From positions 1-54,760 of the forward strand of contig NZ_CAKZNK010000144.1 of NCBI RefSeq assembly GCF_937129525.1: DNA of 54,760 nucleotides. Reading direction: 5' to 3'. Below, piece by piece: positions 5,073-28,676 of the stretch (positions within the stretch are counted from its first letter, which is position 1; each line of letters begins with the position of its first letter). The translations under genes were made by a program, and so were the position numbers. The notes under the pieces were generated by a model. That model was not told where the DNA came from. It was given only the letters and a program-made list of their open reading frames with translations, and did no database searches. This stretch comes from an uncultured Chloroflexus sp. Its GTDB lineage: Bacteria; Chloroflexota; Chloroflexia; Chloroflexales; Chloroflexaceae.

Positions 5073-5089
5073 CAGGTCGCGCCCGCCTG

Positions 5090-5121
5090 CTGACAGCGCG
5101 CCACAATACGCGCGCTGTCAG
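5090..5121. terminator. Hairpin between convergent genes
   Basis: CTGACAGCGCG (5090-5100) and CGCGCTGTCAG (5111-5121) form an 11-bp stem with a 10-base loop between two convergent stops. No long T-run follows, so it is a likely but not classical bidirectional terminator. Confidence 0.6.
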
Positions 5122-5143
5122 ACCAGTTTGGAGCTATTACCCA

Positions 5144-7919: not shown

Positions 7920-10301
7920 ATGGAACGCCTTTTTGCCAGCCGCTACGGCTACTTTAGCGCGGATGGCCGCGAATACACCATTACCACGCCACTAACGCCC
8001 CGCCCCTGGGGGAATGTGATTAGCAACGGCGATTATGCGCTGATGGTGTCGCAGACCGGTTCCGGCTATAGCTGGCGCAATAATGCCGGCCAAAACCGCA
8101 TCACCCGCTCGTTTCAGGATCTGGTGCAAGATAACTGGGGCAAGTATCTCTATTTGCGCGACCTCGATAGTGGAGTGTACTGGTCGGCAACCTATAAACC
8201 AACATTGCACGCTTACGATCACTATCAGGTGACCCACGGTCTGGGCTATTCGCACTTCATCCAGGAAGCGCATGCTATTCGTAGCCATCTGACCGTGTTT
8301 GTGGCCCCTCACGATCCGGTAGAAATGTTTCAGCTTACCCTCACGAATCTCTCTGCGCGTCCGCGCTGGCTTGATGTCACTTCCTATGTTGAGTGGCTGT
8401 TGGGCTTTGCTCCTGACGAACACCGCGAGTTCCACAAGTTGTTTATCGAGACAACGGTCGATCTATCGCTGAATGCATTGCTGGCGCGTAAGTATTTGTG
8501 GGGTTTTGCCGATGAGGCGGGCCGCCATAACAACCTCGACTGGCCTTATGTGGCGTTTATGGCGGTGAGTGAGCCGCTGAAGAGCTTTGACGGCGATAAA
8601 GAGTCGTTTATCGGTCTGTACCAGAGTCTCGAACACCCTCAGGCGATGCAGATGGCGACGCTAGCCGGGCGGGTTGGGCGTTTTGGCGATGCGATTGCGG
8701 CTTTGCAGGTTGAAGTGGCGCTGGAGCCTGGCGAGAGTCGCACAATCATTTTTACGCTGGGCGCCGCCGAGCAGGGCCGCGAAGACCCCGCCGATCTGAT
8801 CCGTCGCTTCACCTCCCCTGCCGCCGCTGCTCAGACTCTGGCTGCCGTACACGATTTCTGGGCGCGTCTGGTTGAGGCTGAATTTGTCGATACACCCGAT
8901 CCGGCCCTCAATCTGATGACTAATTACTGGTTGAAGTATCAGGCAATCTCTGGCCGGTTGTGGGCGAAGTCGGCCTTCTACCAGGTTTCGGCGGGATACG
9001 GCTTCCGTGATCAGTTGCAAGACAGTCAGATTTTTCTGGTGTGCGATCCCGAGCTGGCCAAACGGCAAATCTTGCTCCACGCTGCCCAGCAATTTGTGGA
9101 AGGCGATGTTTTGCACTGGTGGTTTTCGATCCGCGGCGGCGGCCCGCGCACCAACTGCTCGGACGATCTCCTCTGGTTGCCGTTTATCGTCGATTCTTAC
9201 CTGCAAGAGACCGGTGATACGGCAATCCTCGATGAGCCGGTACCCTATCTCAACGCTCCCGCCGAATCGCTCTATCTGCACTGCAAACGCGCTATCGAGC
9301 GTTCGTTTAGTCGCTTTTCTCCTCGCGGCATCCCGTTGATGGGCGATCACGATTGGAATGATGGCCTGAATGCCGTCGGAACCCATCTCCGCGGCGAGAG
9401 CTTTTGGGTAGCCGAGTTTCTCTACGCGATCCTGGAACGCTGGATCCCGATTGCCCGGCAACGCAATGATGCCGCCTTCGCCGACCGTTGCGCCGCTGTC
9501 CGCGAGACGCTGCGCTGGGCTACCAACCGTTATGGCTGGGATGGCGAGTGGTTTTTGCAGGCGACGACCGATGAAGGGTTGCCGCTAGGTTCACGCCAGA
9601 ATGATGAGGGGCGCATCTTTCTGATGCCCAATATCTGGGCAGTGATTAGCGGCATTACCGATCATGAACGGGCCTGCCAGGCAATGGAGTCGGTTACCCG
9701 GTATCTGCTTTGCGATTATGGCACCCTCTTGAACTATCCCGCTTTCACCCGACCCCGCCCTGATATTGGCTACGTGACCCGCTATGCGCCGGGGTTGCGT
9801 GAAAATGGCGGTGTGTACACCCACGCCGCGACGTGGGCCGTGTGGGCCTATGCCCTGCTGGGCGATGCCGAACATGCCTACGAGGCCTATCGCCGGATCT
9901 GTCCACCTAACCGCAGCGCCGATCCAGACCGGTATAAAGCTGAACCATATGTGACGCCGGGCAATGTCGATGGGCCGCAATCGCCCTTCTTTGGGCGAGG
10001 TGGCTGGACGTGGTATACCGGTTCGGCGCAGTGGCTCCACCGCATGGCAACCCACTGGATTTTGGGGATCCGCCCACAAGCCGATGGATTGCTGATCGAC
10101 CCACTTATCCCTTCAACCTGGGAGCGGTTCAGCGCGCGCCGTCGCTTCCGCAATGCGGTGTACGAGATTGAAGTGCTTAATCCCAACCACGCCAGTCGCG
10201 GGGTGGCCATCCTGGAAGTTGATGGGCAGCGCCTCAGCGGTAACGTTGTGCCGGTATTCGGCGACGGTCAGGTTCACCGGGTGCGGGTGGTGATGGGGTG
10301 A
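7920..10301 (+). CDS. GH94 family phosphorylase (cellobiose-phosphorylase type)
   Basis: 793 residues, the length of cellobiose/chitobiose phosphorylases and shorter than the roughly 1,100-residue 1,2-beta-oligoglucan phosphorylases. GH94 landmarks are present: GYGFRDQLQDSQ, EGDVLHWWF, CSDDLLWLP and the catalytic loop GDHDWNDGLN with Asp478 and Asp481. The family releases glucose-1-phosphate from beta-glucosides with inorganic phosphate, saving ATP, and acts in the cytosol (no signal peptide). The ATG follows GGAG. It is the first gene of the operon, directly downstream of the operators. Context suggests a beta-glucan disaccharide or oligosaccharide as substrate; linkage specificity cannot be read by eye. 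Confidence 0.92.
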   Translation: MERLFASRYGYFSADGREYTITTPLTPRPWGNVISNGDYALMVSQTGSGYSWRNNAGQNRITRSFQDLVQDNWGKYLYLRDLDSGVYWSATYKPTLHAYDHYQVTHGLGYSHFIQEAHAIRSHLTVFVAPHDPVEMFQLTLTNLSARPRWLDVTSYVEWLLGFAPDEHREFHKLFIETTVDLSLNALLARKYLWGFADEAGRHNNLDWPYVAFMAVSEPLKSFDGDKESFIGLYQSLEHPQAMQMATLAGRVGRFGDAIAALQVEVALEPGESRTIIFTLGAAEQGREDPADLIRRFTSPAAAAQTLAAVHDFWARLVEAEFVDTPDPALNLMTNYWLKYQAISGRLWAKSAFYQVSAGYGFRDQLQDSQIFLVCDPELAKRQILLHAAQQFVEGDVLHWWFSIRGGGPRTNCSDDLLWLPFIVDSYLQETGDTAILDEPVPYLNAPAESLYLHCKRAIERSFSRFSPRGIPLMGDHDWNDGLNAVGTHLRGESFWVAEFLYAILERWIPIARQRNDAAFADRCAAVRETLRWATNRYGWDGEWFLQATTDEGLPLGSRQNDEGRIFLMPNIWAVISGITDHERACQAMESVTRYLLCDYGTLLNYPAFTRPRPDIGYVTRYAPGLRENGGVYTHAATWAVWAYALLGDAEHAYEAYRRICPPNRSADPDRYKAEPYVTPGNVDGPQSPFFGRGGWTWYTGSAQWLHRMATHWILGIRPQADGLLIDPLIPSTWERFSARRRFRNAVYEIEVLNPNHASRGVAILEVDGQRLSGNVVPVFGDGQVHRVRVVMG

Positions 10302-10398
10302 CGCTCATACACGAAAAAGGAGGTGGCGCATTCGATAACGGAACCCAATCGCTCTCATCAGGAGTTGCAGCAGTATTTGCATTTCAAGGAGGAGAAGC

Positions 10399-11850
10399 AT
10401 GAAACCTTTGGCCAAAGGCGGCTTTCTGCTGGTAGTGATCATGGTGCTGGCAGCGCTGGTCGGTTGTACACCAGCCGCTACGCCGCCACCTACCCAGGCC
10501 CCAACAACGGCGCCGCAGACACCCCCTGAGCAACCGACAGTTGCGCCTACCGCCGAACCGGCTCCTACGGCAGCGGCGAAGCAACCGGTCACATTACGCT
10601 ACGCCAACTGGAATCTCGGCACTGAGGAGGAGAACAACATTCAACGCCGGCTGGTTAAGGCATACACCGAACTCAACCCGCGCGTGACGATTGAATTTGT
10701 CGATATGTCGGGCGGTGGCTGGGATGATATGCTCAACACATATGCGGCTAAAGGTGAGTTACCCGATGTCTTTATGGCCAATAACATGCCGCTGTATGTG
10801 AAAAATGGCTGGCTGGCCGATCTGACCGATCTGGTGGCCAATGACCCCGATTGGGCATTGATCCCGGAAGCGTTGCGCTCGGGGGTGACTTATAATGGCC
10901 GGGTCATGGGTTTGCCCGCCGCGCAGTTTATTATGGGCTATTTCGTCAACCGCGATCTGTACGAGGCGGCCAATCTCGACGCGCCTGAATATGGCTTTAC
11001 GCTCGATGAGTTCAATGCAGCGGTGACCGGTCTGCACAACCCGGCGCGTGGCGTGCTCGGTCTCGATGAGATGGAGTTCGTGATGGGATGGTACCCGCAT
11101 ACGCTCGATAACCGGTTGCAGTGGTTTAGCTTCGATGGCGTTCATATGAACTACAACTCAACTGCGTTTAAAGAGACGGTGGCGCGGGTAACTGAACTCA
11201 AGCCTTACACGTGGCAAGGACTGACCGATGAGCAGAAGGCCAACTTCAAGTCAGCCGGGCCATGGGAGCTGTTCTTGAACCAGGAAGTTGGCATGCGTTG
11301 GGAAGGTGGCTGGGCCATTCCCCAATTCGCCCAGAATGCAACCTTCGATTGGGATTTTGTCGGGATTCCCGGTGGCAATCAGGCGATTGTCATGGATATT
11401 ATCGTCGTGGCAAAGACAGCGCCCAATCTGGAAGAGGCCTACCAGTTCGCGCGCTGGATGACCTTCGCCCGCGCCGCTTATGCTAAAGAAGTCGAGCTGG
11501 CGCGCGAGATGGGCAGTGTGCCGAGCAAGATGCCGGTTGCTATCGATGCCGAGTCGATTGCCCTCTATCGCCAGTTCTTCGATAAGCCGGGCATTAACGC
11601 CGCCCTCGAGAATCTGGACAACAGCCTGGTTGAGTCGCTGGCCAAGCTGGTGCCAGGTTACATCCAGGCCCGCTGGGAGGGCAAGCCGGGTATCGATATT
11701 GGCGAGGATAAAGACGTGAATATGTGGTTTATGTTCTTCCGCGCTGGCGACGGTATCTATAAGTACGAAGACTATGCGCCACAGTTAGAGACCTTCGCCA
11801 ACAATATCCTCGATACGGCCAGAGCAGAGGTTGACGAGGCATTGAAGTAG
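10399..11850 (+). CDS. ABC transporter sugar-binding lipoprotein (family 1)
   Basis: 483 residues. The signal sequence ends in the lipobox LVGC, followed by a Pro/Thr/Ala-rich linker to about residue 58. The mature region starts [11 protein letters not shown] and shows the solute-binding protein family 1 pattern: [22 protein letters not shown], and a C-terminal region rich in aromatic residues. It would capture oligosaccharide outside the membrane for a MalFG-type permease. A good ribosome site (GGAGGAG) precedes the ATG. It is second in the operon, 97 bp after GH94, and is followed by an intercistronic stem-loop. Which of the two permease pairs it serves is not known. Confidence 0.92.
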
Positions 11851-11912: not shown

Positions 11913-12002
11913 GCTCAAGCGCGTGGTATCACCCTTTCGTTGACCGATCACGTCTCGCTGCACCCGGCTTGCGCCGATAGGGAACAGGGACAGGTAAACA
12001 CG

Positions 12003-14855
12003 ATGTACGCTTATCGATTTGGCCGGTCAATCCAACCGATCCTTGCGCTTTGGTTTGCGCTGGCCGGATTGCTGCTGGCTCCGCTGCCGGCGCAAGCCGA
12101 CACCGGGAAGACGCCGGTAATCGAAATCGGCGCCGATGCGCTCGGTCTGCCACTGCGCACCCATCCGCTGTCAGCCGGTTACGCTAAACCGAGCGTTACC
12201 ATCAACGCCGGCGATCAGGTAACCTTTGCCGTTGACGTGCCGCAAACCGGCGCGTATATGCTGGCAATCGATGCCGCCGTGCCAGAATCGATCACCTTTA
12301 TCCCACCAGAACTGCTTGTCCAGATTGCCGGTCAAGCCGAACGCTGGCGACTGCTCATTCCGCTCTTCTACCACGATACCGCTGACACCTTTCCGCTCGA
12401 CCGCTACGGCAACGAGGTTCTTATTCCCCAGGCCCGCCTGGCCCGCTGGAGTCGCGTCTTCTTGCGCGATGTCAATTTCAGTCAGCCCTACCCGCTTGCC
12501 ATCACGTTGTCTGCCGGTCGCCAGCAATTTTCGCTTAGCCTGAGCGAAGGGACGGTCGTGTTGGGCAGCATCTATCTGCTGCCGGCAATCAGTTCGTACC
12601 CGACCTACGCTGAGTATCGGGCGCAACAGCCAGACAATCAGGTCAATGGTGTATTGATTGAACTTGAAGCCGAAAAACCCGCTTACAAGAACGATACTGC
12701 TGTGCGTCCGCTTAGCCGCCAGAATCTGGCAGTGACTCCCTACGATCCCTACCGAATGCTGATGAACACCCTGGGTGGCGAAAACTGGAACCGCAGCGGA
12801 ACGGCAGTTTACTACGAATTTATCGTGCCACAGAGCGGCTGGTATGCGATTACGCTCCGCGCAATTCAGGATTACAAAAACAACTTTACCGTCTACCGAC
12901 GGATCTTGATTGACGATCACGTCCCCTTTGCTGAATTCAATGCGGTACCGTTCAGCTACAATCCGACCTGGCGTAACTATACCCTCGGCGGTGCAACGCC
13001 TTACTTGATCTATCTCGAACAGGGTCGGCACGTGCTGGGGATTGAAGCAACCGCCGCGCCCTACCACGAATCAATCGAACGGGTGCGCGCCAGCCTCAAG
13101 GCAATTGCCGATCTTGCCTTCGCGATCAAGCGTCTGACCGGCAATCAGATCGACATCTACAAAGAATGGGAGATTGCCGATTACATTCCTGACATTCGCG
13201 AACGACTGACGATGCTGGCCGATCAGCTTCGCGCCGATCAGCAAGCGCTGCTGGCCGTCAACCAAACCCCGGCTTCGGCAGAGGTGCTGGCGTACCAGAT
13301 GGCGATTGACAATCTCGCAGTGCTGGCGCAAGACCCTAACCGGATTCCGGTGCGAATGAGTCGCCTTTCGGAAGGGGCGGGATCGGCAGCGCAGTTGCTC
13401 GGGAATGTCTTGCCTTCGTTGCAGAGCCAACCGCTGGCTCTTGACAAGATTTATATCCATTCTCCGGACATCATCCCTCCCGAACCGAATATTACAACCG
13501 GCGCAGTGATTCTCGACTGGGCACAGCGTTTCCTCGCCTCTTTCCGCAGCAATCCTTACCAGAGTATCGGCGCCGCGCCGGATGAACTGGAGGTGTGGGT
13601 CAATCGCCCACAGCAATATGTCAACTTACTCCAACGCATGGCCGATGAGCAGTTCACCCCGCAGACCGGAATCAAGGTCAAGTTTTCGATCATGCCTGAC
13701 GAGGCGAAGTTAATCCTGGCCTGCGCCGCCGGCACTCAGCCTGATATTGCGCTTGGTGTCAGCACTAACATCCCCTACGAACTGGCGATTCGCAATGCGC
13801 TCTACGATTTGCGCCGTTTTCCCGACTTTGATCGCTTCATTCGCATATATGCGCCCGGTTCTCTGTTGAGCTATATCATCAACGACTCGGTATACGCCAT
13901 TCCAGAGACGCAAGATTTTTGGGTCACGTTTTACCGCAAAGACATTCTGGAAACGCTCAACCTGCCGGTGCCACAAACGTGGAACGAGGTGCTGGAGATT
14001 CTGCCAGAGCTGCAACGCTTCGGGATGAACTACAACACGCCGCTCTCGAGTGGTAGCGGCTTGAAAGGGTATCTGGTGACCGCGCCCTATCTTTTCAACA
14101 ATGGCGCGTCACTCTATACTCCGGATGGCATGTCGGGGTTGGGTAGCGACGAGGCGATTCAGGCGATCCGGTTTATGGCCGAAAGTTTCACCATCTATGG
14201 CATGCCGTTAACCACCGCCAGTTTCTACGAAAGTTTTCGCGCCGGCGAAACCCCGGTTGGCATCTCGAACTTTGAAACCTATCTCAAGCTGCTCACTGCC
14301 GCGCCTGAAATTGATGGCCTGTGGGATATTACTCTCTACCCGGCGACCGTCTTGCCCGATGGACGCCAGTTGCGCTACGCGACTGGCTCGGCCCAGGCGG
14401 CAATGATGTTCGCCAATACCGACAAACCGCAGCAAGGATGGCAATTCCTGACCTGGTGGATGTCCACTGAGACGCAGGTTGCATTCCAGCGCGAATTGAT
14501 GATGAACTATGGACTGGAATATCTGTGGAATTCGGCCAATCTGGAGGCATTCCGGTTTACGCCGATTGCCGGTTCGCACCGCGACGTGATCTTGCAGCAG
14601 TGGCAGTGGTTGCAAGAGCCGGTTAAATTGCCGGGTAGTTATATGCAAGAGCGCGAACTGAGCAACGTTTGGAACCGGATCGTCTTTGACGGCGCCAATC
14701 CGCGCGTGGCGATTGACGCTGCCGTGACGGTAATCAACCGCGAGATTACGCGCAAGATGACCGAATTCGGCTATATCCGCAACGGTGAGCGGGTGAAGAC
14801 CTTCACAATTCCTACGATTGAGACAGTGAAGGAGTGGATGGCGCATGCAAACTGA
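12003..14855 (+). CDS. Large two-part extracellular solute-binding protein
   Basis: 950 residues, about twice the normal size. A signal peptide ([10 protein letters not shown], cleavage before DTG) lacks a lipobox. Residues about 30-520 look like beta-sandwich carbohydrate-recognition modules followed by a helical segment. Residues about 530-930 form a family 1 solute-binding domain ([48 protein letters not shown]). Similar long binding proteins occur beside YtcP/YteP-like permeases in Bacillota. The ATG at 12003 is chosen because the signal peptide begins just after it; the frame opens earlier at 11940. The stop overlaps the next permease gene by 11 bp. It probably presents a polymeric or long oligomeric glucan to the permease pair that follows. 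Confidence 0.88.
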
Positions 14856-15759
14856 CCGGCGTAACCACATGATCGGCCAATGGCGCAAGGAGGCAAGCGC
14901 GTATGTCTTCGTCGCGCCTTACGCCGCGCTGTTCGCAGTCTTCATCGCAATTCCGGTGCTGGCGGCATTTCTGCTCTCATTTACGTTTTTCGATTCGATC
15001 CAGCCGCCACAGTTCAACGGGTTGTTGAACTACATCGTGTTGCTGACCCAAGACGACATCTTTATGCGCTACGTCTTGCCCAACACGATCCAGTTTGCCG
15101 TGCTGGTTGGGCCGGGAGGTTATGCGCTGGCCTTTTTGCTGGCCTGGATGCTGGCCCAGTTGCCGCGCCTGCCGCGCGCGATCTTTGCCCTCATTCTCTA
15201 TTCGCCGTCGATGACCGGCGGGGTGGCGATGGCGGTCGTCTGGCAGACACTCTTTAGTGGGGATCAGAACGGGTATCTGAACAGTTTCCTGCTCAGCCTC
15301 AATCTGATCCAGGCGCCGATCCAGTGGCTGCAATCGCCAGAGTATTTGATGACGATCATGATCATTGTCACGCTGTGGAGCAGTATGGGAGTCGGCTTTC
15401 TGGCTATGCTGGCCGGAATGCTCGACATTAATCCTGAATTGTACGAAGCCGGCGCCCTCGATGGGATCAGCAGCCGCTGGCAAGAGATTATCTACATCAC
15501 GATTCCATCGATGAAGCCGCAGATGCTCTTTGGCGCCGTGATGGCGATTGTCGGCGCTTTTCAGGCCGGCACGATCGGTGTAGCGCTATCGGGGAGCAAC
15601 CCTACGCCGCGTTACGCCGGCCAACTAATCGTCAACCACATCGAAGACTACGGTTTCCTGCGTTACGAGATGGGGTATGCTGCCGCAGTCTCGGTCGTGT
15701 TGCTGTTGATGGTATTGCTGTTTAACCGGCTCGCCAACAAACTCTTTCGCGAGGATTGA
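14845..15759 (+). CDS. Sugar ABC transporter permease, MalF/UgpA type (first pair)
   Basis: 304 residues with about six membrane segments, the first at about residues 25-50 ([19 protein letters not shown]). The EAA loop that contacts the ATPase is at about 201 ([10 protein letters not shown]...IPSMKP). The start overlaps the end of the binding-protein gene by 11 bp, and GGAG lies 11 bases before it, so the two are translationally coupled. An internal ATG at 14869 is possible. It forms a heterodimer with the next gene product. Confidence 0.93.
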
Positions 15760-16664: not shown

Positions 16665-16713
16665 GTGGATACGCCTGCGCTTGAGTGAAGGCCGCTACGC
16701 GAGAGAGACGACT

Positions 16714-18753
16714 ATGGATCGGGTGCGCATCCGCAATCAGAGTGTTTTCTGGCTCGGCGTTGTGATTGCCCTGGCGCTGGGGACGGTAGTGCGCGCGCCG
16801 GTAGTTCAGGCTGATGCGCCCTACGTAACCTGGACACCAGGCCCTGGCGGCGAGCTATACATGACCCAGGATGCATATATCCCGATTGGCGAGACACCTT
16901 TGCCAGTAGCCGGCCCCGAAGACATGTTTATGACGCCGGATGGGATCATCTATCTGGCCGATACCGGCAATGGACGAATCGCGCGGCTCGATGAGACTCT
17001 GACGGTAGTGGCAGAGTATGGAAAGGGAATTTTGCAAAAACCGTTCGGCGTTTTCGTCGATGATGAAGGCACTGTATATGTGGCCGACGCAGGGTTGAAT
17101 CAGATTGTTGTGCTGGCCGCAGACGGCACGCTCCGCCACCAGTTCGGGCGACCGGTTGAACCACTGTTCGGCAAGAACCGCAGCTTCCTGCCCCGCAAAG
17201 TGGCAGTTGATCAGCGCCGCAACCTCTATGTCATCGGCGAAGGATCGGTGCAAGGGGTCATCCTGCTCAACCCCGATGGCCGCTTCATCGGTAATTTCGC
17301 TGCCAATACCGCCCAGATGTCGCTGCGCATGCTCTTACAGCGGATGTTCTTGAGCGAAGAGCAACTGGCTCAACTGGCGCGAAACGAAGCTGCTTCGCCA
17401 TCGAACCTGGCTATTGACCGGCAATCGATGCTCTACACCATTACTGCCAGCACATTTGCCGACCAGAGCATCCGCAAATTCACCGTTGCCGGACGCAATA
17501 TCTTTCCATCTGTTATCGGCTCAACCTCATTCCGCGACATCCACATCGATCCCGATGGTCTACTGGTGACAGTTGATAGCGAGGGCCGGATCTTCGAGTA
17601 CGACCAGAATGGCACGTTGCTGTTTCTGTTCAATGCCCGCGACAATGGCGATCAACGGCGCGGGACACTGATCAATCCGACCGGAATTGCCCGTTACGGC
17701 GACCTGATCTATGTCCTCGACAAAGAAAAGAATGCGCTGATCCGCTATCAGGCCACTGCCTTCGCCGAGACGGTGCATCGGGCGATGCGGCTCTATCTGG
17801 CCGGTTTTTACCGCGAAGCGCAGCCCTATTTTGAACAGGTGCTCAACTTCAATGGTTCGTTCATCATGGCGTATCAGGGGTTGGCCGATGCCTACTTCAA
17901 AGCCGGCAATTACGGCGCGGCGCTGACGGCCTACCGCTACGCCGAAGATCGGGCCGGTTATTCAGAGTCCTTCTGGGAGCTACGCAATGCGGTACTACAG
18001 CAATATCTCGGCCCATTCATCATTGCTATCACGCTGGCGGCGCTTGGTCAAAGCATTATGCGACGCTTCGAACGTCGGTACGGCTGGTTTGAACCGTTGC
18101 GGGCCTGGATGCGGCAACTTCGCCGGCGCCGACTGATTGACGATGCTGTCTTCCTGCTGCGCTTTGTGCGCCATCCGGTTGATAGCTTCTACTACATCAA
18201 AGCCAACCAGCGCGGCAGTCTGCGCTTTGCCTTTCTGATCTACCTCTGGGTGATTGCCGTTCACGTGCTCTCACTCTATTTGATGGGTTTTCCCTTTAAT
18301 CAGTATGCCTACCCCGGACAGATTCGGGTCGAGAATGAAATTGCGCTGCTGGTGGTGCTCTTCGGGTTGTGGAATACGGCGAACTATCTGGTGTCAACGA
18401 TCAGCGACGGCGAAGGCCGGGTGCGCGACGTCGTGATCGGCAGCGCCTACAGCCTCTTTCCGTATGCGCTGTTTATGCCAGTCGTGATCGCTGTCTCGAA
18501 TGTGTTGACGCTCAACGAGATCTTTCTGGTCACCTTCTCGCAGCAGGTTATTTTTGCCTGGACTGGATTGATGCTTTTCATCATGGTGCGAGAAATTCAC
18601 AACTATACCATCTCAGAAACGACCGGCAATGTTCTCAAGACCCTGTTCACAATGGCGATGCTGGCGTTCACCGCTTATATTCTCTCGCTCTTGTTTGGGC
18701 AATTGTTCGATTTTATCAGCGCTATCTGGCAGGAGATTGGTTTGCGTGGGTAA
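16714..18753 (+). CDS. NHL-propeller / TPR / Yip1-domain membrane protein
   Basis: 679 residues with an unusual domain series. A signal segment ([13 protein letters not shown]) is followed by an exported NHL-type beta-propeller at about 45-355 ([48 protein letters not shown]). A TPR-like pair follows at about 365-430 ([27 protein letters not shown]), and a Yip1-like membrane bundle of about five to six helices fills the C-terminal 230 residues. Comparable proteins sit beside DUF5696 genes and sugar transporters in Paenibacillus-type genomes; their function is unknown. It may sense or scaffold glucan at the membrane. The ATG at 16714 follows GAGAGAG. The stop overlaps the next gene by 8 bp. 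Confidence 0.82.
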
Positions 18754-20893
18754 GCTCATCCATGTGCTGATAGCAGTGTTGCTGCTAACAATGTCGCTCC
18801 CGGTGGCTCAGGCCGCCGAAACGATGACCGGTATTCCTGCCGGTTACGAGCCGGTTGCTGCTAATGCCACATTCGAGCTGTATCTCAACCGCGAGACGCT
18901 GGCGTTCAAGGTGCGTGACCGACGCAGTGGCTATCTCTGGTCGTCGACGCTCGATGAGGTAACGCCAGCCGACCGCCTCAACCGGACCTGGACGGCGTTC
19001 GCGCGCAGCGGCATTAGCATCGAATATATGGACGCGCGCGCCAACACGCGCCGGGCATCGATCACCAATGCCGAACATCGGCTAGAGATTGCTACGCTCA
19101 GTGATGGCTTTCGCGGGCAGGTTACCTTTGTCGATCCGGCAATCACGATCACGGTACAGGTCACGCTGACACCACGCGGGGTACGGGTTGAAGTACCCTT
19201 CAGCGGGATCAGCGAAGCGGGAAACTTCCGGCTGGCCCAACTCCATCTCTACCCCTTCTTCGGCGCGACGCGCGAGGCCGAAACACCGGGATACATGCTG
19301 ATCCCCGATGGCAGTGGCAGTCTGATTGCGTTCACGGAACGCACCAATGCGCGCGCAATGTTGTATGGCCGTTACTATGGCCCCGACATCGGGATGCGCG
19401 GCGAATTACCGGTCAACCCCGATACCCGCCCGACCTATCCACTCTCGGCGCCGGTCTTCGGTATCGTCCACGGCGAGCAACAGCACGCGGCGCTCGCCAT
19501 CCTTGAACGCGGTTCAGCCTTTGCCGAACTGCTCGTTCACCCGGCAGGCATCACAACCAGATTCAACTTTCTCTACCACCTCTTCATCTACAACGAGAGC
19601 TACTTCCAGCCAACCAACCGCTCTGGCGCGGGAGTGACTACTATCCAACCGCAAACCAATGCGTTCGACATCGTACAGCACTACCAGTTTCTCACCGGCG
19701 CTGAAGCTGATTATGTCGGATTGGCGCGAGCTTATCAGCAGTTTCTGGTTGAGCAGGGCATCTTGCGCCCTACAGGCGCAGCCAATGGCGAGTTACCGCT
19801 GCGCGTCGAGTTTCTGGCCGCCGAGCGGGAACGGGTGCTCTTCTGGCAGCGGGCGATACCGATGACGACCATCGCCCAGATGGCCGACATCCTGGCCACG
19901 CTGCCAACCAGCAGAGTTGAAGTGGTCTACTATGGCTGGCAACCGCAGGGAGCCACCGCGCCACTACCGCTCAGCTTTCAGATCGAAGGCGCGTTGGGTA
20001 GCCGGAATGCCCTGGTGGAATTAGCCCGAACGATAGAGACTCAGGGTGGAACGCTCAGTCTCTACGTTGACCCCCAGGCCGGCCTGGTTGACGAGAGTGG
20101 TTACACGCGCAGCGATGTGGCGATGGCGATCAACCGGGCGCTGATCCGCGGTACCCATCGCGGTATGCAGCAGCTCTATTTCAATCTGCAAGCTGTTGAA
20201 CAGCGCCTCAAAGCCTGGAGCAACGCCTTTGAACCGGCAGGACTCGGCATTGCGCTCGATGGCATCGGCTTTCGGTTGTATAGCGATTTTCAGGCAGCGA
20301 ATCGCCGCAACCGCGAAGAGATGTTACAAGCCTACCAGACGCTCTTGAGCAAGTATGGCCCGTTTGCCATGTATCGCCCAAATGCCTATCTGTGGGAAGC
20401 CACCCGCGCCTACTACGATATACCACTCGGCGACAGTGGGTACCTCTACACCACTGCCGCGGTGCCCTTCTTGCCGATTGTACTCGCCGGTTACATTCCA
20501 TACTATGGCCCGCCGCTCAACTTCTCGTCGAATCTGGAAGCAGATCTGCTGCGTCACGCCGATTATGGCGCATACCCGTCATTTCTTCTTACCCACGAAG
20601 CAACGGCGGCGATCTTAAAGACACGCTCAAACTGGATCTATACCTCAGCCTACAACCAGTGGCGTGACGAAGCACAGCGGGCATATGCATGGCTGGCTAG
20701 AGTGCTTGGGCCGGTGCAGGGATCGGCGATTGTGGCGCGCGCAACACCTCTGCCCGGCGTATCTGTGACTGAATACGCGAATGGGAAACGAGTTGTCGTC
20801 AACTACACCACGCAATCGATCACGCTGGCCGGTCAGACCATCCCACCGCGCGATGCAATCGTGATCGATGGCGCACCGTCTGGCAGACCATGA
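18746..20893 (+). CDS. DUF5696-type secreted protein
   Basis: 715 residues from a GTG at 18746, which overlaps the upstream gene by 8 bp and follows AGGAG. A signal peptide ([17 protein letters not shown], cleavage before AETM) marks it as exported. Residues about 30-330 look like beta-sandwich sheets ([15 protein letters not shown]). Residues about 370-680 look like a barrel fold ([47 protein letters not shown]). This layout recalls glycoside hydrolases, with a possible acid in LDGIG or LWEAT, but no known family can be assigned by eye. It is co-transcribed with the propeller-Yip1 gene, so the two probably act together on extracellular glucan. Confidence 0.78.
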
Positions 20894-21861: not shown

Positions 21862-22791
21862 ATGCCACGGCTACGCATTGACTATCTACGCCGAATTGTC
21901 TGGGGCGCACACAACCGGCCCGGTATCCTGCCCACGATCCTGCTCTACGCAGTCTTGATCGCTATCGGTTTCGTCTACCTCTACCCGCTGCTGTTTATGA
22001 CGATCACCAGCTTCAAAAGTCCCGATGACTTGCTGAACCCGATGGTGCAGTGGGTACCAACTGAGCTGTATATCGGCAACTTCCAGAAAGCGTTTCGGGT
22101 ACTGGACTACCTCGAGACACTTCGGGAAACTATCGTCATTAGTGTCGCGCCAACGGCGTTGCAGGTCGTGGTGTGCGCGCTGATCGGCTATGGCCTGGCC
22201 CGTTACCGCCTGTGGGGGAAATCGATCCTCTTCGCGCTCATTTTCGCTACGTTTGTCATTCCTCCCCAAAATACCGTCATTCCACAGATGTTGAATTACC
22301 GCTATCTCAACCTGCTCGGCAATCCGCTATCACTGCTCATTCCGGCAGCGTTGGGGCAAGGTTTTAAGAGTGCGATCTTCATTCTCATCTTCTACCAAAA
22401 CTTTCTGTCACTGCCGCGCGCGCTGGAAGAAGCGGCCCGGCTTGACGGCGCGTCAGACCTGGGTATCTTCTGGCGGATTGCGTTGCCCGGCGCGACGCCG
22501 GCGTTTATCGTCTCGTTTGTCTTCTCGGTGGTCTGGTACTGGAACGAAACCTACCTGACCACGGTGTTTCTCGAGGGCGGTATTCAGACGCTGCCGATGC
22601 AGTTGGCCCGGTTTACCCAGGCCTACGAAAACCTCTACCCGTCGAGTATGGTCAACATCTTTGACCGGCTCAACGAAGCGGTGAAGATGAGCGGAACGTT
22701 GCTGACGATTTTGCCGTTGCTGGTGATGTATTTCATCTTGCAACGCTGGTTTGTCGAGTCAATTGAACGATCAGGACTTGCCGGTGAATAA
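21862..22791 (+). CDS. Sugar ABC transporter permease (second pair, MalG/YtcP type)
   Basis: 309 residues with about six membrane segments (first at about 22-45) and the EAA loop at about 189 (EEAARLDGASDLGIFW). GGGGAGGG precedes the ATG. It pairs with the preceding permease. The stop overlaps the GTG start of the next gene by 8 bp, so transport and extracellular hydrolysis are translationally coupled. Confidence 0.93.
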   Translation: MPRLRIDYLRRIVWGAHNRPGILPTILLYAVLIAIGFVYLYPLLFMTITSFKSPDDLLNPMVQWVPTELYIGNFQKAFRVLDYLETLRETIVISVAPTALQVVVCALIGYGLARYRLWGKSILFALIFATFVIPPQNTVIPQMLNYRYLNLLGNPLSLLIPAALGQGFKSAIFILIFYQNFLSLPRALEEAARLDGASDLGIFWRIALPGATPAFIVSFVFSVVWYWNETYLTTVFLEGGIQTLPMQLARFTQAYENLYPSSMVNIFDRLNEAVKMSGTLLTILPLLVMYFILQRWFVESIERSGLAGE

Positions 22792-24169
22792 GATACGCAT
22801 CTGGAATATGCTGATGGGGCTGGCATTATTGATCACAGCCTGCGCAACTCCAACCGGGCCGAGCGTTCAGCCATCGGACGCGACGGCCACCGTTGCCGCG
22901 ACACCAACATCACTGCCAGCATCCGTGCCAGCGTCAACGCCGACACCGATGCCGATGCCCACGACCATCGTCGGCGACGACGAGATCATCGCCTACGAAA
23001 TGCGCGCAGCGTTTGACTTCTTTTGGGAACAGGCCAACACCGACCCTGATAGCCCCGGCTATGGCCTCATTCGCGACCGTTATCCGGGATCGGCAGGAAT
23101 TGCCAGTATTGCCTCGGTTGGCTTTGGCCTGACCGCTCTCATTGTTGGGGTGGAACGAGGCTACATCACGCGCGACGAAGGCTATGAACGCGCCTCAGGC
23201 ACGTTACAAACCCTTACGCGAATGGAATCGGTTGAGGGGTTTTACTACCACTTCGTAGATATTCATACCGGTCAGCGAGCCTGGCAGAGTGAAGTATCGA
23301 GTATCGACACCGCTATCTTGCTGATGGGAGTGCTGGCGGTGGGGCACTATTTTGGCGCAGAGGTGGCCACCCTGGCCAATACCATCTACGAGCGGGTTAA
23401 CTGGCCCTGGTTTCTTGATCCCGACCGGCAAATGTTTTATATGGCGTATTACCCGGAAAAAGGCTTCAGCGGTTATTGGGATTTTTATGCCGAACAGTTG
23501 ATGCTCTACGTGCTGGCAGCAGCATCGCCCACCTATCCGGTTGACGAAACACCGTACTACACCTTCATTCGCCACACGGGACGGTATGGCGATGGAGAGC
23601 CGTTTATTCACTCGTGGTTTGGATCGATCTTTACCTACCAGTTTAGTCATGCGTGGATCGATTTTCGCGGACTGGTTGACCAGAAAGGGGTTGATTGGTT
23701 TCAGAACTCGGTTGCCGCCTCGCGCGCGCACTACGACTTTGCTGTGGCAATGGATGCGAAATACGAAACCATTGGTCCCAATGCCTGGGGGCTGACTGCT
23801 TGCGACGGCCCCAACGGTTATGAAGGACGCTACGGCGCGCCGCCATCGGGGTACGACAACCGCGCCCACTTCATCGACGATACCGTGCCGCCAGCAGGAG
23901 CAATCGGATCGATCATCTTCACTCCGGCAGAGTCGTTGCAGGCGATGCGCTTCTACTACTCGCTTGAGCAGTTGAAAGGGCAGTATGGTTTTTACGATGC
24001 CTTCAACCTGTCACGCAACTGGTATGCCACCGACGTGATCGGCATCGACAAGGGTATCTCGCTGGTGATGCTGGCGAACTACCAGGATGACCTGATCCAC
24101 CGGGTGATGATGAGCCATCCGATTATTCAGACTGGCCTGACGCAATTGGGGATTGCAGCGAAGGAGTGA
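22784..24169 (+). CDS. Exported GH144-type (PF10091) lipoprotein, likely endo-beta-1,2-glucanase
   Basis: 461 residues from GTG 22784. The lipobox LLITAC places it on the outer face of the membrane, and a Pro/Thr/Ala-rich linker runs to about residue 60. The catalytic domain carries the PF10091 'glucoamylase' pattern: SPGYGLIRDR, ASIASVGFGLTAL, GVERGYITRDE, EVSSIDTAILLMG, QLMLYVLAAASPTYP, IGIDKGISLVML. PF10091 proteins include the founding GH144 endo-beta-1,2-glucanase of Chitinophaga. It would cut extracellular glucan to oligosaccharides for the two transporters. GTG is chosen because it gives a short basic N-terminus before the lipobox and is preceded by AGGA. Confidence 0.85.
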   Translation: MNKIRIWNMLMGLALLITACATPTGPSVQPSDATATVAATPTSLPASVPASTPTPMPMPTTIVGDDEIIAYEMRAAFDFFWEQANTDPDSPGYGLIRDRYPGSAGIASIASVGFGLTALIVGVERGYITRDEGYERASGTLQTLTRMESVEGFYYHFVDIHTGQRAWQSEVSSIDTAILLMGVLAVGHYFGAEVATLANTIYERVNWPWFLDPDRQMFYMAYYPEKGFSGYWDFYAEQLMLYVLAAASPTYPVDETPYYTFIRHTGRYGDGEPFIHSWFGSIFTYQFSHAWIDFRGLVDQKGVDWFQNSVAASRAHYDFAVAMDAKYETIGPNAWGLTACDGPNGYEGRYGAPPSGYDNRAHFIDDTVPPAGAIGSIIFTPAESLQAMRFYYSLEQLKGQYGFYDAFNLSRNWYATDVIGIDKGISLVMLANYQDDLIHRVMMSHPIIQTGLTQLGIAAKE

Positions 24170-24188
24170 TGGGATTAGGGGAGGAACA

Positions 24189-25172
24189 ATGCCGACGATC
24201 AAAGACGTTGCTCGCCGCGCCGGTGTCAGTGTGACTGCGGCTTCGTATGCCCTCAACCGCACCGGCACCATCAGCGAAGAGACGCGGCAACGGGTGTTAC
24301 AAGCAGCCGAAGAGCTGAATTACCATCCCAATGCCTTTGCCCGCCACCTCAAGGCGCGCCGGTCGCGCACGATTGGTATCTTTATTACCCGTTTCGCCGG
24401 CGCTTTCTACGAAGAGATTCTTGATGGCATTCACGAGGTCATTCTCGCCACCGAATACGAGCTGATCGTCTGCCCGGAGACACGGGTCGAACGGCGCATC
24501 TTTACCCATCGCCAGGTCGATGGCGCAATCGTGTTTGATACCAGTATCCGCGACGAACAGATTCTGCGCCTTGCCGGGCCGAAATTCCCGATTGTGGTGA
24601 TGGATCGGCAGCTTGAAGCCGAGTATGTCTTCCCGCTTTTGCTTGACAACCGGCAAGGCGTCGCGCAGGCGTTTGCGCATCTCTACCGTCAGGGATTGCA
24701 GCGACTGGCCTATATCGCCGGCGCGCCCGATTCATTTGACAACAACGAGCGCATGCAAGCCTTTCTGAACGAAGCGGCGCGTCATCAGTTGTCAGTGCGC
24801 GTTTATCCCGGCAATTTTACCGAGCAATCGGGTTATGCGGCGGCTAAACGGATCATCGACGAGGGCGATCTACCCGAAGGTGTCTTTTGCGCCAACGACC
24901 AGATGGCAATCGGCTTTATGCGCGCGATGCGCGAACACGGTCTCGAGGCGCCACGCGACATTGCCGTGATCGGCTGTGACGACATTTTGCTGGCCCGATA
25001 TGTGCAACCGCCGCTTTCGACCATCGGCGCGTCACGGCGCGAGTGGGGCGGTACCGCTGCGCGCTGGTTAATGCGCTACCTTGAGCGCGAAGAGGTCTCG
25101 CCACCTCAGCGCATACCAACCGCTTTTATCGCCCGCGCTTCGTCGCTCAAACGTCCTGAAAACCTGGAGTAG
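24189..25172 (+). CDS. LacI-family transcriptional regulator of the glucan operon
   Basis: 327 residues. Residues 2-50 form the LacI helix-turn-helix (TIKDVARRAGVSVTAAS, with recognition positions V-T and Tyr at the usual Arg place). The hinge helix AFARHLKARRSRTIG and a periplasmic-binding-protein-like effector domain follow (FCANDQMAIGFMRAM, DIAVIGCDD). GGGGAGGA precedes the ATG at 24189. It is the only regulator in the operon, and the operon promoter carries LacI-type palindromes, so it very probably represses its own operon and releases on binding a sugar inducer. The inducer is probably a beta-glucan oligosaccharide (inference). Confidence 0.93.
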   Translation: MPTIKDVARRAGVSVTAASYALNRTGTISEETRQRVLQAAEELNYHPNAFARHLKARRSRTIGIFITRFAGAFYEEILDGIHEVILATEYELIVCPETRVERRIFTHRQVDGAIVFDTSIRDEQILRLAGPKFPIVVMDRQLEAEYVFPLLLDNRQGVAQAFAHLYRQGLQRLAYIAGAPDSFDNNERMQAFLNEAARHQLSVRVYPGNFTEQSGYAAAKRIIDEGDLPEGVFCANDQMAIGFMRAMREHGLEAPRDIAVIGCDDILLARYVQPPLSTIGASRREWGGTAARWLMRYLEREEVSPPQRIPTAFIARASSLKRPENLE

Positions 25173-25175
25173 CCT

Positions 25176-26414
25176 GTGGATACGACAACGCCGATCACCT
25201 TTGAGATCGAGGGCGCGATTACTTTCTTTCGCGCCGGCACGAACCTTGATCCCTCCAGCCCTGGCTATGGTTTAACGGTCGATGCCATCCATCGGCCTCA
25301 GATCGCGTCAATCGCCTCAGTTGGATTTGCGCTTAGCGCTTGGGTGATTGCGGTTGAGCGCGGTTTGATGCGCTACGCCGACGCTCTGCACCTCACCCGC
25401 GGCACGTTGCGGACACTCTACGAGCGGGTGCCTCATCAATACGGCTTCTTTGCCCACTTTCTCGACCGCGCCACCGCAGCACGCTGGGGTCATTGCGAAT
25501 ATTCCACGATTGATACCGGTCTTTGCTTGAACGGTGTGTTGACGGCTGCGGCCTATTTTCGTGACGCCGAAATCGAAGAGCTGACCGAACGTCTGCTCGA
25601 CCGGATCGATTGGAATGCATTTCTCGCCGAACGAGACGGGCATCTGGTCTTGCGCATGTCGTACAATCCCGATGCTGATGGCGATTATGTGACCGATACG
25701 CCGGGGTTTATCAGCTTCTGGGATATGGCTGCCGAACAGAAGCTGCTGTACCTCCAGGCTGCGTTACGATTGCCGCCGGTCACTGCTCGCGCGCTCTATC
25801 AAGGGTTTCGAAGCGACATCGGCTACTATCAGGGCCAGCCGGTAATTATCAATCCCGGTGGAACGCTCTTTGCCTATCAATACACTGAAGCCTGGCTCGA
25901 TACCCGTAGCTACCGTGATCCTGACGGTATTGACTGGTTCCGCAATGCACAACTTGCTGCGCTGGCCAACCGCGACTATTGTCTCAGCCTGCGCGATCGG
26001 TTTGGCGCCTACCACGAACGAAGCTGGGGGATCGGATGCGGCGATACCCCTCGCGGTTACGTCGTGGCTGGCGCGCCACCTGCCTTGATACCACCTGAAC
26101 CGGACGGCACCGTTTCGATCAGTAACGCTCTGTCCTGTATGCCCTATATGCCCGACGCTGTGCTCGACATGCTTGATTATCTCTACCACAAACAGCCGGA
26201 CACTCAAGGGCCATACGGTTTTTACGATGCGTATAACCTTTCGACCAATCCACCGTGGTATAGCCGCACCGTATACGGGATTAATAAAGGCTGCGCCTTA
26301 CTGATGCTGGAAAACGCTTGCACCGGCCTGATCTGGGATGTCTATACGTCTGGTTCGCGCATCCAACACGCGCTCAATGTCCTGGGATTCACCAGACAAC
26401 CATCAATCGCCTGA
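25176..26414 (+). CDS. Cytosolic GH144-type (PF10091) glucanase/exo-hydrolase
   Basis: 412 residues from GTG 25176, three bases after the regulator stop, with CTGGAG upstream. It is a paralogue of the exported enzyme 1 kb upstream, sharing PSSPGYGL, ASIASVGFALS, EYSTIDTGLCLNG and VYGINKGCALLML. It lacks a signal peptide and linker, so it should act inside the cell on imported oligosaccharides. In GH144 an exo-type sophorose-releasing enzyme is known, and that role would fit here. Product size cannot be predicted from the sequence alone. Confidence 0.85.
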   Translation: MDTTTPITFEIEGAITFFRAGTNLDPSSPGYGLTVDAIHRPQIASIASVGFALSAWVIAVERGLMRYADALHLTRGTLRTLYERVPHQYGFFAHFLDRATAARWGHCEYSTIDTGLCLNGVLTAAAYFRDAEIEELTERLLDRIDWNAFLAERDGHLVLRMSYNPDADGDYVTDTPGFISFWDMAAEQKLLYLQAALRLPPVTARALYQGFRSDIGYYQGQPVIINPGGTLFAYQYTEAWLDTRSYRDPDGIDWFRNAQLAALANRDYCLSLRDRFGAYHERSWGIGCGDTPRGYVVAGAPPALIPPEPDGTVSISNALSCMPYMPDAVLDMLDYLYHKQPDTQGPYGFYDAYNLSTNPPWYSRTVYGINKGCALLMLENACTGLIWDVYTSGSRIQHALNVLGFTRQPSIA

Positions 26415-26438: not shown

Positions 26439-28676
26439 ATGCCTGACTTCACAGTCCACAGCCAGCGCTTCTGGCTCGATGGTCAACCACTATTGCTACA
26501 GGCGGGCGAGTTTCACTACTTCCGCGCGCCTGCCGATCAATGGCCGCAACGCCTCAGTCTGCTGACGCAGGCCGGATTTAACGCGGTTGCCTGCTACATT
26601 CCATGGCTGTGGCACCAGCCACAACCTTCCGTGATCGATGTGCAGGGGGAAACGCACCCGATGCGCAATCTGGCCGGTTTTCTCGATCTGGCGCATCAGA
26701 TGGGACTCTACGTCATTGCCCGGCCCGGCCCGTACATCATGGCCGAAACCATCAACGAGGGGATTCCACCGTGGGTATTTGAGCACTACCCGCAGATCGC
26801 GCTGATCAACCAGCGTGGCGAAGCGGAACAGATCGCCAGTTACCTGCATCCCGATTTTCTGCGCTGCGTCGCCGATTGGTATCGCGCCGTCTTCGGCATA
26901 CTGGCGCCGCGCCAGATCACGCGCGGCGGCCCCATCATTCTCGTGCAACTTGATAATGAAATGGGTATGCTGCACTGGGTGCGCAACAGCTTTGATCTGA
27001 ATCCGGTGGCGATGCAGCACTTCGCTGCCTGGCTCAATGCAACCGGTCATACCGCGCTGATCCACGATCCGGCAACCCTGGCCGAACAGTTGCGCCATGC
27101 CGAAGGTGAAGCCGGCGCGCAACTGGTAGCTGACTATCGTCGCTTCTACCGGAGCTATCTGCGCGACTATACGCGCTGGATGCTGGCCGAAGCGCGCGCG
27201 AATGGTCTTGAGACGCCGGCAGTGATCAACATTCACGGCTTTGCCAATGGCGGTAAAACCTTTCCAATAGGTTTGTCGCAATTGCTCGAGACATTGCGTC
27301 TCCCTGAGATCATCAGCGCCACCGATGTCTATCCGGGTCAGATCGGCGCAGGCACCTTCCATCAGATTATGCTGATTAACGCGATGACCAGCGCCATCCA
27401 AAATCCGGCTCAGCCACTCTTTTCGATCGAATTTCAGGCAGGCGGCAATCTCGACTTCAGCAATATGTCAAGTTCTTTCTACGACCTCCACACCCGACTG
27501 AGCCTGGCCAACGGTATGCGCGCGATCAATCACTACCTCTTTTTCGATGGAGAAAACGACCCGCTGCTCAGCCCGATCAAACGGCACGACTGGGGGCACC
27601 CGGTGCGCGTCGATGGCACACTGCGCAGCCACTATCATCGCTACCCGCTCTTGTCACGCGCGTTAGCGAGCTACGGCGATGCGCTCACCCTCGCGCAACC
27701 GGAAACGATCACCACTATCGGTTTTCGCGTTGATGATTTTATGACCGAAGTCAATGCGCCCTGTACGCAGACGGCAACCAACATCATCACTCATCAGCGC
27801 GATGTGATCTTGTTTGACTTCATCGCGCGCGGACTGGCTCTCACCCACCGCGACTTCAAGGCGCTTGAGCTACAACATACCCCGCTTGATCCGGCACAGG
27901 TACCGCTCCTTTGGACGATGCTCGACGAAAACTGCGATCCGGCCACCGAACGCAAGCTGGTTGAATATGTTGCTGCCGGTGGACGAGTAGTGATTGTTGG
28001 ACGATTGCCCACAGCCGGCATACTGGCAACCGCGCTTGCTATCCAGGTCAGCAGCGACCCACCCTTCACGCCTCGTCGGGCGCACATCTTCGACAACGCC
28101 GACATTCCGGTCAGCTTTGCGCAGTACTATCACGGCGAACCGGGGAACATTTTCGCTACCGTCAATGATGAGTCAATCGGTTTTCGCAAACAGCTCGGCA
28201 AGGGCGAGATCGTGATGCTTGGGGCAGCCTTCCCGATTGTCAACCTTACCGATCTCGCCGTCTTTTCTCGTCTGGCCGAATGGGTTGATTGCGTCGCGCC
28301 CTTCACCCTCTCCAACTGGGTCGATGTTCATCTGAGTCGCGGCCCGCAGGGTGACTTTTTGTTTGTCAATCACTATGGCGACGATCCACTCGAAACCAGA
28401 ATCGACTATCGTGGAAGGCCGTTATTCGACGGCCACCCGATCACTATGCCGGCGCGGAGCGGCGCGATCTTGCCGCTGAACTGGAGGATTCGCCCTGGCC
28501 TGACGGCGCGTTATGCCACTGCAGAAATCAGAGCAGTAACGGCAGTCGCCGGCGCGCTGATTTTGACATTTGCCCGACCTGAAGGGGTGATCTGTCTGGA
28601 AAGAGATGGCGCTCCGGCGCCGCAATTCATCTACTTCACCAACGGCACTATTCAGATCATAGAGTCATCGCAATAG
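26439..28676 (+). CDS. GH35-family enzyme, possibly a beta-1,2-glucosyltransferase
   Basis: 745 residues, no signal peptide. GH35 motifs are clear but altered: GEFHYFRAP, RPGPYIMAETINEGIPPWV and GGPIILVQLDNEMG, with Glu174 as acid/base. Glu331 (FSIEFQAGG) is the likely nucleophile. The galactosidase-typical sequences (CAEWDFGG, VENEYG, EFWTGWFD) are replaced. A GH35 protein of Ignavibacterium found among beta-1,2-glucanase homologues was reported to be a beta-1,2-glucosyltransferase. The same context here makes that activity at least as likely as beta-galactosidase. C-terminal beta-domains run from about 400 to the end. GAGAGG precedes the ATG. Confidence 0.85.
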   Translation: MPDFTVHSQRFWLDGQPLLLQAGEFHYFRAPADQWPQRLSLLTQAGFNAVACYIPWLWHQPQPSVIDVQGETHPMRNLAGFLDLAHQMGLYVIARPGPYIMAETINEGIPPWVFEHYPQIALINQRGEAEQIASYLHPDFLRCVADWYRAVFGILAPRQITRGGPIILVQLDNEMGMLHWVRNSFDLNPVAMQHFAAWLNATGHTALIHDPATLAEQLRHAEGEAGAQLVADYRRFYRSYLRDYTRWMLAEARANGLETPAVINIHGFANGGKTFPIGLSQLLETLRLPEIISATDVYPGQIGAGTFHQIMLINAMTSAIQNPAQPLFSIEFQAGGNLDFSNMSSSFYDLHTRLSLANGMRAINHYLFFDGENDPLLSPIKRHDWGHPVRVDGTLRSHYHRYPLLSRALASYGDALTLAQPETITTIGFRVDDFMTEVNAPCTQTATNIITHQRDVILFDFIARGLALTHRDFKALELQHTPLDPAQVPLLWTMLDENCDPATERKLVEYVAAGGRVVIVGRLPTAGILATALAIQVSSDPPFTPRRAHIFDNADIPVSFAQYYHGEPGNIFATVNDESIGFRKQLGKGEIVMLGAAFPIVNLTDLAVFSRLAEWVDCVAPFTLSNWVDVHLSRGPQGDFLFVNHYGDDPLETRIDYRGRPLFDGHPITMPARSGAILPLNWRIRPGLTARYATAEIRAVTAVAGALILTFARPEGVICLERDGAPAPQFIYFTNGTIQIIESSQ

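Follow-up and report, generated by a model that had tools for sequence, protein, structure and literature searches.

Conserved Genes for NHL/Yip1 and DUF5696 Proteins Between Permease Pairs of Chloroflexus Suggest a Glycan-Import Assembly

Introduction

What do two adjoining genes without a described role do between two pairs of permease genes? Here, we describe such a pair from an uncultured Chloroflexus sp., in a stretch of 54,760 nucleotides (the window; NCBI RefSeq assembly GCF_937129525.1, contig NZ_CAKZNK010000144.1, positions 1 to 54,760). The first gene encodes a membrane protein that joins an NHL beta-propeller, TPR-like helices and a Yip1 bundle (NHL/Yip1), and the second an exported DUF5696 protein. 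The original prediction, made from the sequence alone, saw the two as core parts of a glucan system, with DUF5696 as a new glycoside hydrolase (GH) or binding family and the propeller protein as a scaffold or sensor. It also held that neither has a known role, and no paper on the pair or its architecture was found in the open-licence PubMed Central (PMC) literature, neither for "DUF5696" nor for Yip1 together with NHL, permease or ABC transporter. With moderate confidence, we propose that seven genes, for a solute-binding protein (SBP2), permeases permA and permB, NHL/Yip1, DUF5696 and permeases permC and permD, encode one glycan-import assembly, in which DUF5696 would be a non-catalytic glycan-holding subunit and NHL/Yip1 a scaffold, driven by a shared ATPase.

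Results and Discussion

The NHL/Yip1 and DUF5696 open reading frames (ORFs) share 8 bp, and a Pfam scan places CUT1-type permease pairs on both sides of them, both as predicted; the genes belong to one same-strand run from GH94 to GH3 (Table 1). Linkage was followed in two surveys, one of 301 genomes of the phylum and one of 80 loci from Chloroflexota, Bacillota and Acholeplasma relatives, these 80 being the best of 202 confirmed stretches and biased towards the window's own type. DUF5696 matches occurred in 39 of the 301 genomes at E ≤ 0.001 and above the cut-off in 29, three of which (G096, G136 and G300) hold partial matches in other proteins only. The other 26 coincide one for one with the 26 genomes in which the Yip1 subfamily occurs; in all of them the Yip1 and DUF5696 matches lie next to each other, on the same contig and strand, with 0.3-0.75 kb in between. 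G078 and G126, from the window's own genus, have neither. Among loci whose contigs extend far enough (which omits 20 of 80 for the full core), 59 of 60 have all seven genes in the order SBP2-permA-permB-NHL/Yip1-DUF5696-permC-permD. Upstream of DUF5696 stand NHL/Yip1 (74/75 loci), permB (72/73), permA (68/69) and SBP2 (64/64), and downstream permC (74/74) and permD (73/73); the exceptions are L062, with unrelated sequence upstream instead of NHL/Yip1, L123, with permB displaced, and L085, without a recognised permA. Distant Chloroflexota loci (~25% identity) hold the whole core in 11 of 13, L038 and L043 being cut by contig ends, and in a fourteenth (L050) the contig ends within DUF5696. Some of these distant loci encode NHL and Yip1 in two neighbouring genes; elsewhere the two are fused. 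The exact 8-bp overlap recurs at 43 of 77 measured junctions, where starts were chosen mechanically and overlaps of other lengths partly reflect start choice. Among the 80 loci, the one nearest to the window comes from a Chloroflexus metagenome-assembled genome (L060; 82% identity in DUF5696). The shared 26 genomes and the whole-core synteny bear out the view of the two genes as core parts and not passengers, and their linkage with permease pairs is conserved outside this genome and across phyla. Two nearby DUF5696 modules with different neighbours (L120 and L138) were seen on one Haloplasmataceae contig (JARDZP010000008.1).

CUT1 ATP-binding cassette (ABC) importers that rely on a shared MsmX/UgpC-type ATPase provide the closest comparison for the flanking genes. 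A regular expression for the EAA motif matched 69/72 permA, 66/71 permB, 70/72 permC and 62/73 permD proteins. SBP2, with coordinates that run from the first TTG and a true start that may be later, has an N-terminal half of ~500 residues (with a weak CBM_35 match below cut-off) and a C-terminal CUT1-type SBP domain (~560-850). Its best solved relative is Lin1841, a beta-1,2-glucooligosaccharide-binding protein (E 7.7e-13). A second solute-binding protein, SBP1, is very close to solved structures 22hh to 22hl (22hh, E 3.6e-288), for which no matching paper was found in the open-licence PMC literature. None of the 16 window proteins scanned is an ATPase, and the genome's single OB_MalK match lies on another contig (C5), outside the window. 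Four EAA permeases and a sole OB_MalK match elsewhere imply a shared ATPase, and we infer that the OB_MalK-matching ATPase serves these permeases. The features of a CUT1 importer are all present: MalF- and MalG-type permeases with the EAA loop, SBPs, and a MalK-type ATPase elsewhere in the genome. The locus differs from such importers in having four permeases per block, and two extra exported or membrane proteins between the pairs.

Two ordinary importers might also lie side by side, SBP2 with permA/permB and SBP1 with permC/permD, each for its own oligosaccharide, with NHL/Yip1 and DUF5696 accessory to one only. Two SBPs are indeed present in 58 of 60 loci, SBP1 being the usual companion, and EAA loops occur in both permease pairs. 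However, in L122, L123, L125 and L133 SBP1 stands behind permD, yet the core of seven genes stays together in 59 of 60 loci, and L137 and L138 are without a recognised SBP1. Both permease pairs are also kept in distant Chloroflexota, where 0 of 14 loci have an SBP1 match; this absence counts weakly, since the SBP1 profile is glucan-type and only L039, L041, L048, L049, L050 and L052 extend 1.4 kb or more beyond SBP2 on its upstream side. We consider this arrangement unlikely.

The window's GH94, GH144, GH35 and GH3 enzymes form a beta-1,2-glucan set, with GH144, GH94 and a glucosyltransferase-type GH35 all recognised by homology, the GH144-type proteins through PF10091, which we take to cover GH144. 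Beta-1,2-glucan is most likely the substrate in this genome. In the excerpted literature, Lin1841 of Listeria innocua binds beta-1,2-glucooligosaccharides (PMC12369401) and a beta-1,2-glucanase of Chloroflexus aurantiacus was employed as a reagent (PMC12102758). The lin1839-1841 beta-1,2-glucan cluster of L. innocua is similar to the window in its GH94, its GH3, an SBP related to SBP2 and its substrate class, but excerpts of its descriptions mention no propeller/Yip1 or DUF5696 partner (PMC12369401, PMC8861115).

The companion enzymes vary from locus to locus, as judged from selected flanking genes (10 in the distant Chloroflexota scan and 20 in the other scans). A GH144-type gene is present in 45 of 60 loci, and the core elsewhere adjoins GH43 (L122, L123), alpha-L-arabinofuranosidase (L122, L125), GH2 (L122), GH16 (L126, L128, L137), or GH5 and GH3 (L138, GH3 by a purpose-built profile). 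Distant Chloroflexota loci neighbour AnmK/beta-lactamase, D-Ala-D-Ala carboxypeptidase, RelA/SpoT, FtsK, RNase J, polysaccharide deacetylase and other genes, with no polysaccharide glycoside hydrolase among the 10 selected flanking genes. Since the flanking enzymes vary and the core is constant, the core resembles an import module for glycans in general and not a glucan-specific one; the part of the original prediction that confined the pair to "the glucan system" does not hold, as the same core adjoins the GH43/arabinofuranosidase, GH16 and GH5 sets.

The DUF5696 ORF gives 715 residues from GTG 18746, with a longer frame possible from ATG 18629, and matches PF18952 with 536.6 bits (cut-off 25.6; profile positions 4-611 of 612). 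Behind an N-terminal hydrophobic export signal lie a sandwich (~34-345), a triosephosphate isomerase (TIM) barrel (~350-625) and a C-terminal beta domain (~660-710); the predicted "sandwich-plus-barrel" layout is right in the model, with this last domain additional to it. The predicted model, built from a 46-sequence alignment, has a predicted local distance difference test score (pLDDT) of 93 and a predicted template modelling score (pTM) of 0.92. DagB and NagBb occupy the top eleven Foldseek rows (E 6e-32 to 5opq), ahead of GH101 and GH36, and comparison with NagBb and DagB yields Z 27-28 and a root-mean-square deviation of ~4 over 554-577 residues spanning ~34-712, the next rows having Z 19. 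By this model, the fold is of the GH129/DagB type (NagBb, 5wzn; DagB/ZgGH129, 5opq and 8rzk; remotely GH101), at ~15% identity over the full three-domain length, and a fold unrelated to carbohydrate processing, the outcome that would have spoken against the prediction, did not occur. The sandwich, TIM barrel and immunoglobulin-like (Ig-like) domain described for DagB (PMC5698469, in excerpt) match the model's layout. Sequence profiles agree weakly with the GH129 link (8rzk, 5e-4; 5wzq, 2.5e-3); the GH129 Pfam model PF11308 has no match in the window protein at E ≤ 0.001 and none in genome G000, and NCBIfam has no name for the DUF5696 protein or SBP2. Weak DUF5696 matches in alpha-amylases (L058, L059) and an SMC protein (L056) were rejected as chance or remote barrel similarity, and L053 (DUF5696 and GH129 models), L054, L055 (partial DUF5696 only) and L057 (DUF6259) were set aside as coming from genomes without an NHL/Yip1 partner. 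The L054 protein (9028-10932, minus strand), from Chloroflexota genome G136, is a near relative of NagBb (4.6e-96) and likely a true GH129 enzyme.

Catalytic positions were compared with DagB, for which the excerpted source names Asp486 (NagBb Asp435), Glu517, Glu531 and Asp202 and describes a required acid contributed by the partner monomer (PMC5698469). Residue counts refer to 97 distinct DUF5696 sequences, out of 101 (79 loci, 21 further genomes and the window), after removal of L069, L071, L073 and L100 as duplicates of L034, L031, L033 and L032, respectively; the alignment does not include fragment L096 or the DUF5696 proteins encoded in genomes G025, G077, G221 and G273. Column 505 (window Asp505) aligns with the NagBb Asp435/DagB Asp486 nucleophile through two bridges (L053 and L054), and NagBb Glu-Glu 478-479, of which E478 is presumably the acid/base, aligns with 543-544 (bridge L054). 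The window protein has Tyr543 and Arg544 there, and no acid at 541-545. Column 505 is Asp in 70 of 97 sequences (R 10, E 4, S 3, Q 3, and others) and column 543 is Tyr in 75 of 97. Acids at 505 and 543 together are found once (L136), and Asp505 with any acid at 541-545 in 13 of 97: twelve from Bacillaceae (Glu544) and L119 (acid at 541), with none among 60 distinct Chloroflexota sequences. Asp505 is present in 37/37 GH144-linked Chloroflexota, 10/10 related Chloroflexota loci without an observed GH144, 0/13 distant Chloroflexota, 15/22 GH144-linked Bacillota/Acholeplasma types (the remaining seven having A, S, Q, H, R or E) and 8/15 such types without GH144 in the locus. Judged by alignment, the window protein is without an acid/base and the GH129-type pair is not kept across the family as a whole. 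Two candidate assignments were dropped: Asp188 (in a PDG turn, Asp in 95/97) as a stand-in for DagB Asp202, as the alignment, read by eye, sets this turn against a different DagB stretch, and column 509 for DagB Asp486 (from direct alignment), replaced by 505 on the L053/L054 bridges and strand 4 in the model.

The pocket itself appears to be retained. Thr374 and Asn592 are invariant (97/97 each), and conservation is higher on the pocket side of the barrel than on the opposite face (2.56 vs 1.97 bits, permutation p 0.003), a pattern that would fit a kept binding site. Several points weigh against a non-catalytic protein. Asp505 is kept beyond the needs of a dead site; the twelve Bacillaceae sequences have an acid one residue off the mapped position and might be catalytic; and Asp214 (Asp in 81/97) could act as a DagB-like partner-monomer acid. 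The residue mapping consists of profile alignments through bridge sequences, not coordinates, and the barrel-face test relies on strand limits hand-set from the model. DUF5696 could then represent a new family of active hydrolases or transglycosylases, with Asp505 and an acid from a loop or partner subunit trimming chains at the importer mouth, as its full GH129/DagB architecture, the invariance of Asp505 in GH144-linked Chloroflexota, the Bacillaceae Glu544 and the borrowed acid of DagB would allow. Set against this are the lack of a paired acid in all 60 Chloroflexota sequences, the loss of Asp at 505 in 7 of 22 GH144-linked Bacillota/Acholeplasma types and in all 13 distant Chloroflexota, the alpha linkages cleaved by known relatives, in contrast to the beta-glucan that is the probable substrate in this genome, and the constancy of DUF5696 while companion enzymes change; we regard an active enzyme as rather doubtful. 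Constant amid changing enzymes, placed between permeases and keeping a pocket without the catalytic pair, DUF5696 is likelier a transport subunit than an enzyme. Of the "new glycoside hydrolase or binding family" first suggested, the hydrolase part is not supported (a few Bacillaceae members might be exceptions), and a binding family with a propeller scaffold is the best remaining reading.

The NHL/Yip1 ORF encodes 679 residues counted from ATG 16714, with an in-frame TTG upstream at 16681. The NHL (39.3 bits, cut-off 20) and Yip1 (PF04893, gathering cut-off 28.6) parts of the predicted NHL-TPR-Yip1 architecture exceed their Pfam cut-offs; TPR_2 falls below its own (21.3 bits, cut-off 27), and model helices 349-409 and matches to designed TPR proteins are consistent with TPR-like repeats. 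The AlphaFold model (pLDDT 87) comprises a propeller, TPR-like helices and a membrane-spanning bundle. In the fold comparison, the rows are all taken by the propeller (Z ~30 to NHL domains), which alone, and not the Yip1 bundle, is covered. A role for NHL/Yip1 in sensing glycan outside the cell or the state of the envelope, with DUF5696 presenting the ligand and transport merely co-regulated, seems improbable. The propeller resembles sensor kinase PknD (Z 26.5), with other NHL propellers scoring higher, and some distant loci adjoin AnmK/beta-lactamase or D-Ala-D-Ala carboxypeptidase; but the Pfam scan found no signalling output domain in NHL/Yip1, its strict position among permease genes suggests transport over regulation, and LacI-type regulators are already present in 50 of 80 loci.

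Taken as one importer, the SBP2-permA-permB-NHL/Yip1-DUF5696-permC-permD proteins would form a complex powered by a shared MalK/MsmX-type ATPase encoded elsewhere. The exported DUF5696 protein, having lost the full acid pair of the GH129/DagB fold, would hold glycan at the outer face, and the propeller/TPR-like/Yip1 protein would tie it to the permeases as a membrane scaffold. In this genome, a surface GH144 would cut beta-1,2-glucan, the assembly would import the chains, and cytoplasmic GH144, GH94, GH35 and GH3 would finish their breakdown. Gene content, linkage, the folds of the predicted models and the residues at the catalytic positions are observed; complex formation, glycan binding, the direction of transport and the lack of catalysis are putative. 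The gene order, readable as [SBP2-permA-permB]-[NHL/Yip1]-[DUF5696-permC-permD], suggests a further version, which we hold only tentatively and think somewhat improbable: DUF5696 would replace an SBP as substrate receptor of permC/permD, and two joined importers would pass a long glycan chain between them. If true, a pseudo-glycosidase, a retired GH129-fold enzyme, would deliver substrate to an ABC importer. Long chains are taken in for cytoplasmic breakdown in the alginate import of Sphingomonas A1, where we know of no homologue of NHL/Yip1 or DUF5696, no search having been made. NagBb and DagB differ from DUF5696 in its Tyr543 at the acid/base position, its permease operon and its Asp, which is not universal. 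A single importer would represent an unrecognised import module common to bacteria of several phyla, among them Lachnospiraceae and relatives with arabinan-type enzymes at the locus, with a constant core and changing enzymes. It would give DUF5696 its first structural relationship and a testable role, provide a marker for glycan-uptake loci, and bear on how large or cyclic glycans cross the membrane in such bacteria.

Additional Features of the Locus

Table 1. Features of the locus, in window coordinates.
Feature	Position	Strand	Basis
GH94 phosphorylase-type protein, substrate-specific companion	7920..10301	+	
SBP1, lipoprotein-like solute-binding protein, usual but not invariable companion	10399..11850	+	structure match 22hh
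SBP2, long solute-binding protein	11940..14855	+	Pfam, Lin1841 match
permA, MalF-type permease, EAA loop EAGALDG	14845..15759	+	
permB, MalG-type permease, EAA loop	15756..16664	+	
NHL/TPR-like/Yip1 membrane protein, 679 residues	16714..18753	+	
Exported NHL beta-propeller, residues 39-347	16828..17754	+	model; Z 24-30 to NHL and related propellers
TPR-like helices, residues 349-410	17758..17943	+	model; Pfam TPR_2 below cut-off
Yip1 transmembrane bundle, residues 484-651	18163..18666	+	PF04893, 37.2 bits
DUF5696 protein, 715 residues	18746..20893	+	Pfam, predicted model
Asp505 codon, end of barrel strand 4, aligned with GH129 nucleophile	20258..20260	+	bridge alignments and PMC5698469 (in excerpt)
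Tyr543 codon, end of barrel strand 5, aligned with first Glu of NagBb SSEE (position 478)	20372..20374	+	
permC, divergent MalF-type permease, EAA loop	20890..21846	+	Pfam, 28.5 bits (cut-off 26.4)
permD, MalG-type permease, EAA loop	21862..22791	+	
GH144-type protein (PF10091), lipobox-like N-terminus, exported companion	22751..24169	+	
LacI-type regulator	24153..25172	+	
GH144-type protein (PF10091), without N-terminal signal, cytoplasmic companion	25176..26414	+	
GH35, nearest solved relative beta-1,2-glucosyltransferase 7vkw	26439..28676	+	
GH3	28692..30800	+	

Three DUF5696 proteins (L048, 8486-10936, minus strand; L049, 8564-11020, plus strand; L052, 8659-11115, plus strand) have a hydrophobic, transmembrane-like insertion in the barrel past the strand-4 region, its position taken from the alignment for L048 and hydrophobic stretches being present in all three. 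Lipobox-like N-termini occur on the DUF5696 proteins of L119 (9830-12109) and L122 (9848-12076), which are perhaps surface-anchored and not freely secreted.

An arrangement with all enzymes cytoplasmic was dropped in view of the lipobox-like N-terminus of the first GH144-type protein. GH144-type proteins are hydrophobic at the N-terminus in 45 of 78 cases, some (of the second type) merely having an internal hydrophobic stretch. Both types are present in the window, and the Fictibacillus and Listeria loci L101 and L121 show the second only. Proteins beside the module in L137 (16999-20235, 1078 residues) and L138 (14398-17553, 1051 residues) have no Pfam match, and in L039, from a distant Chloroflexota genome, AnmK is fused to a beta-lactamase-type protein near the module (3789-6182, minus strand).

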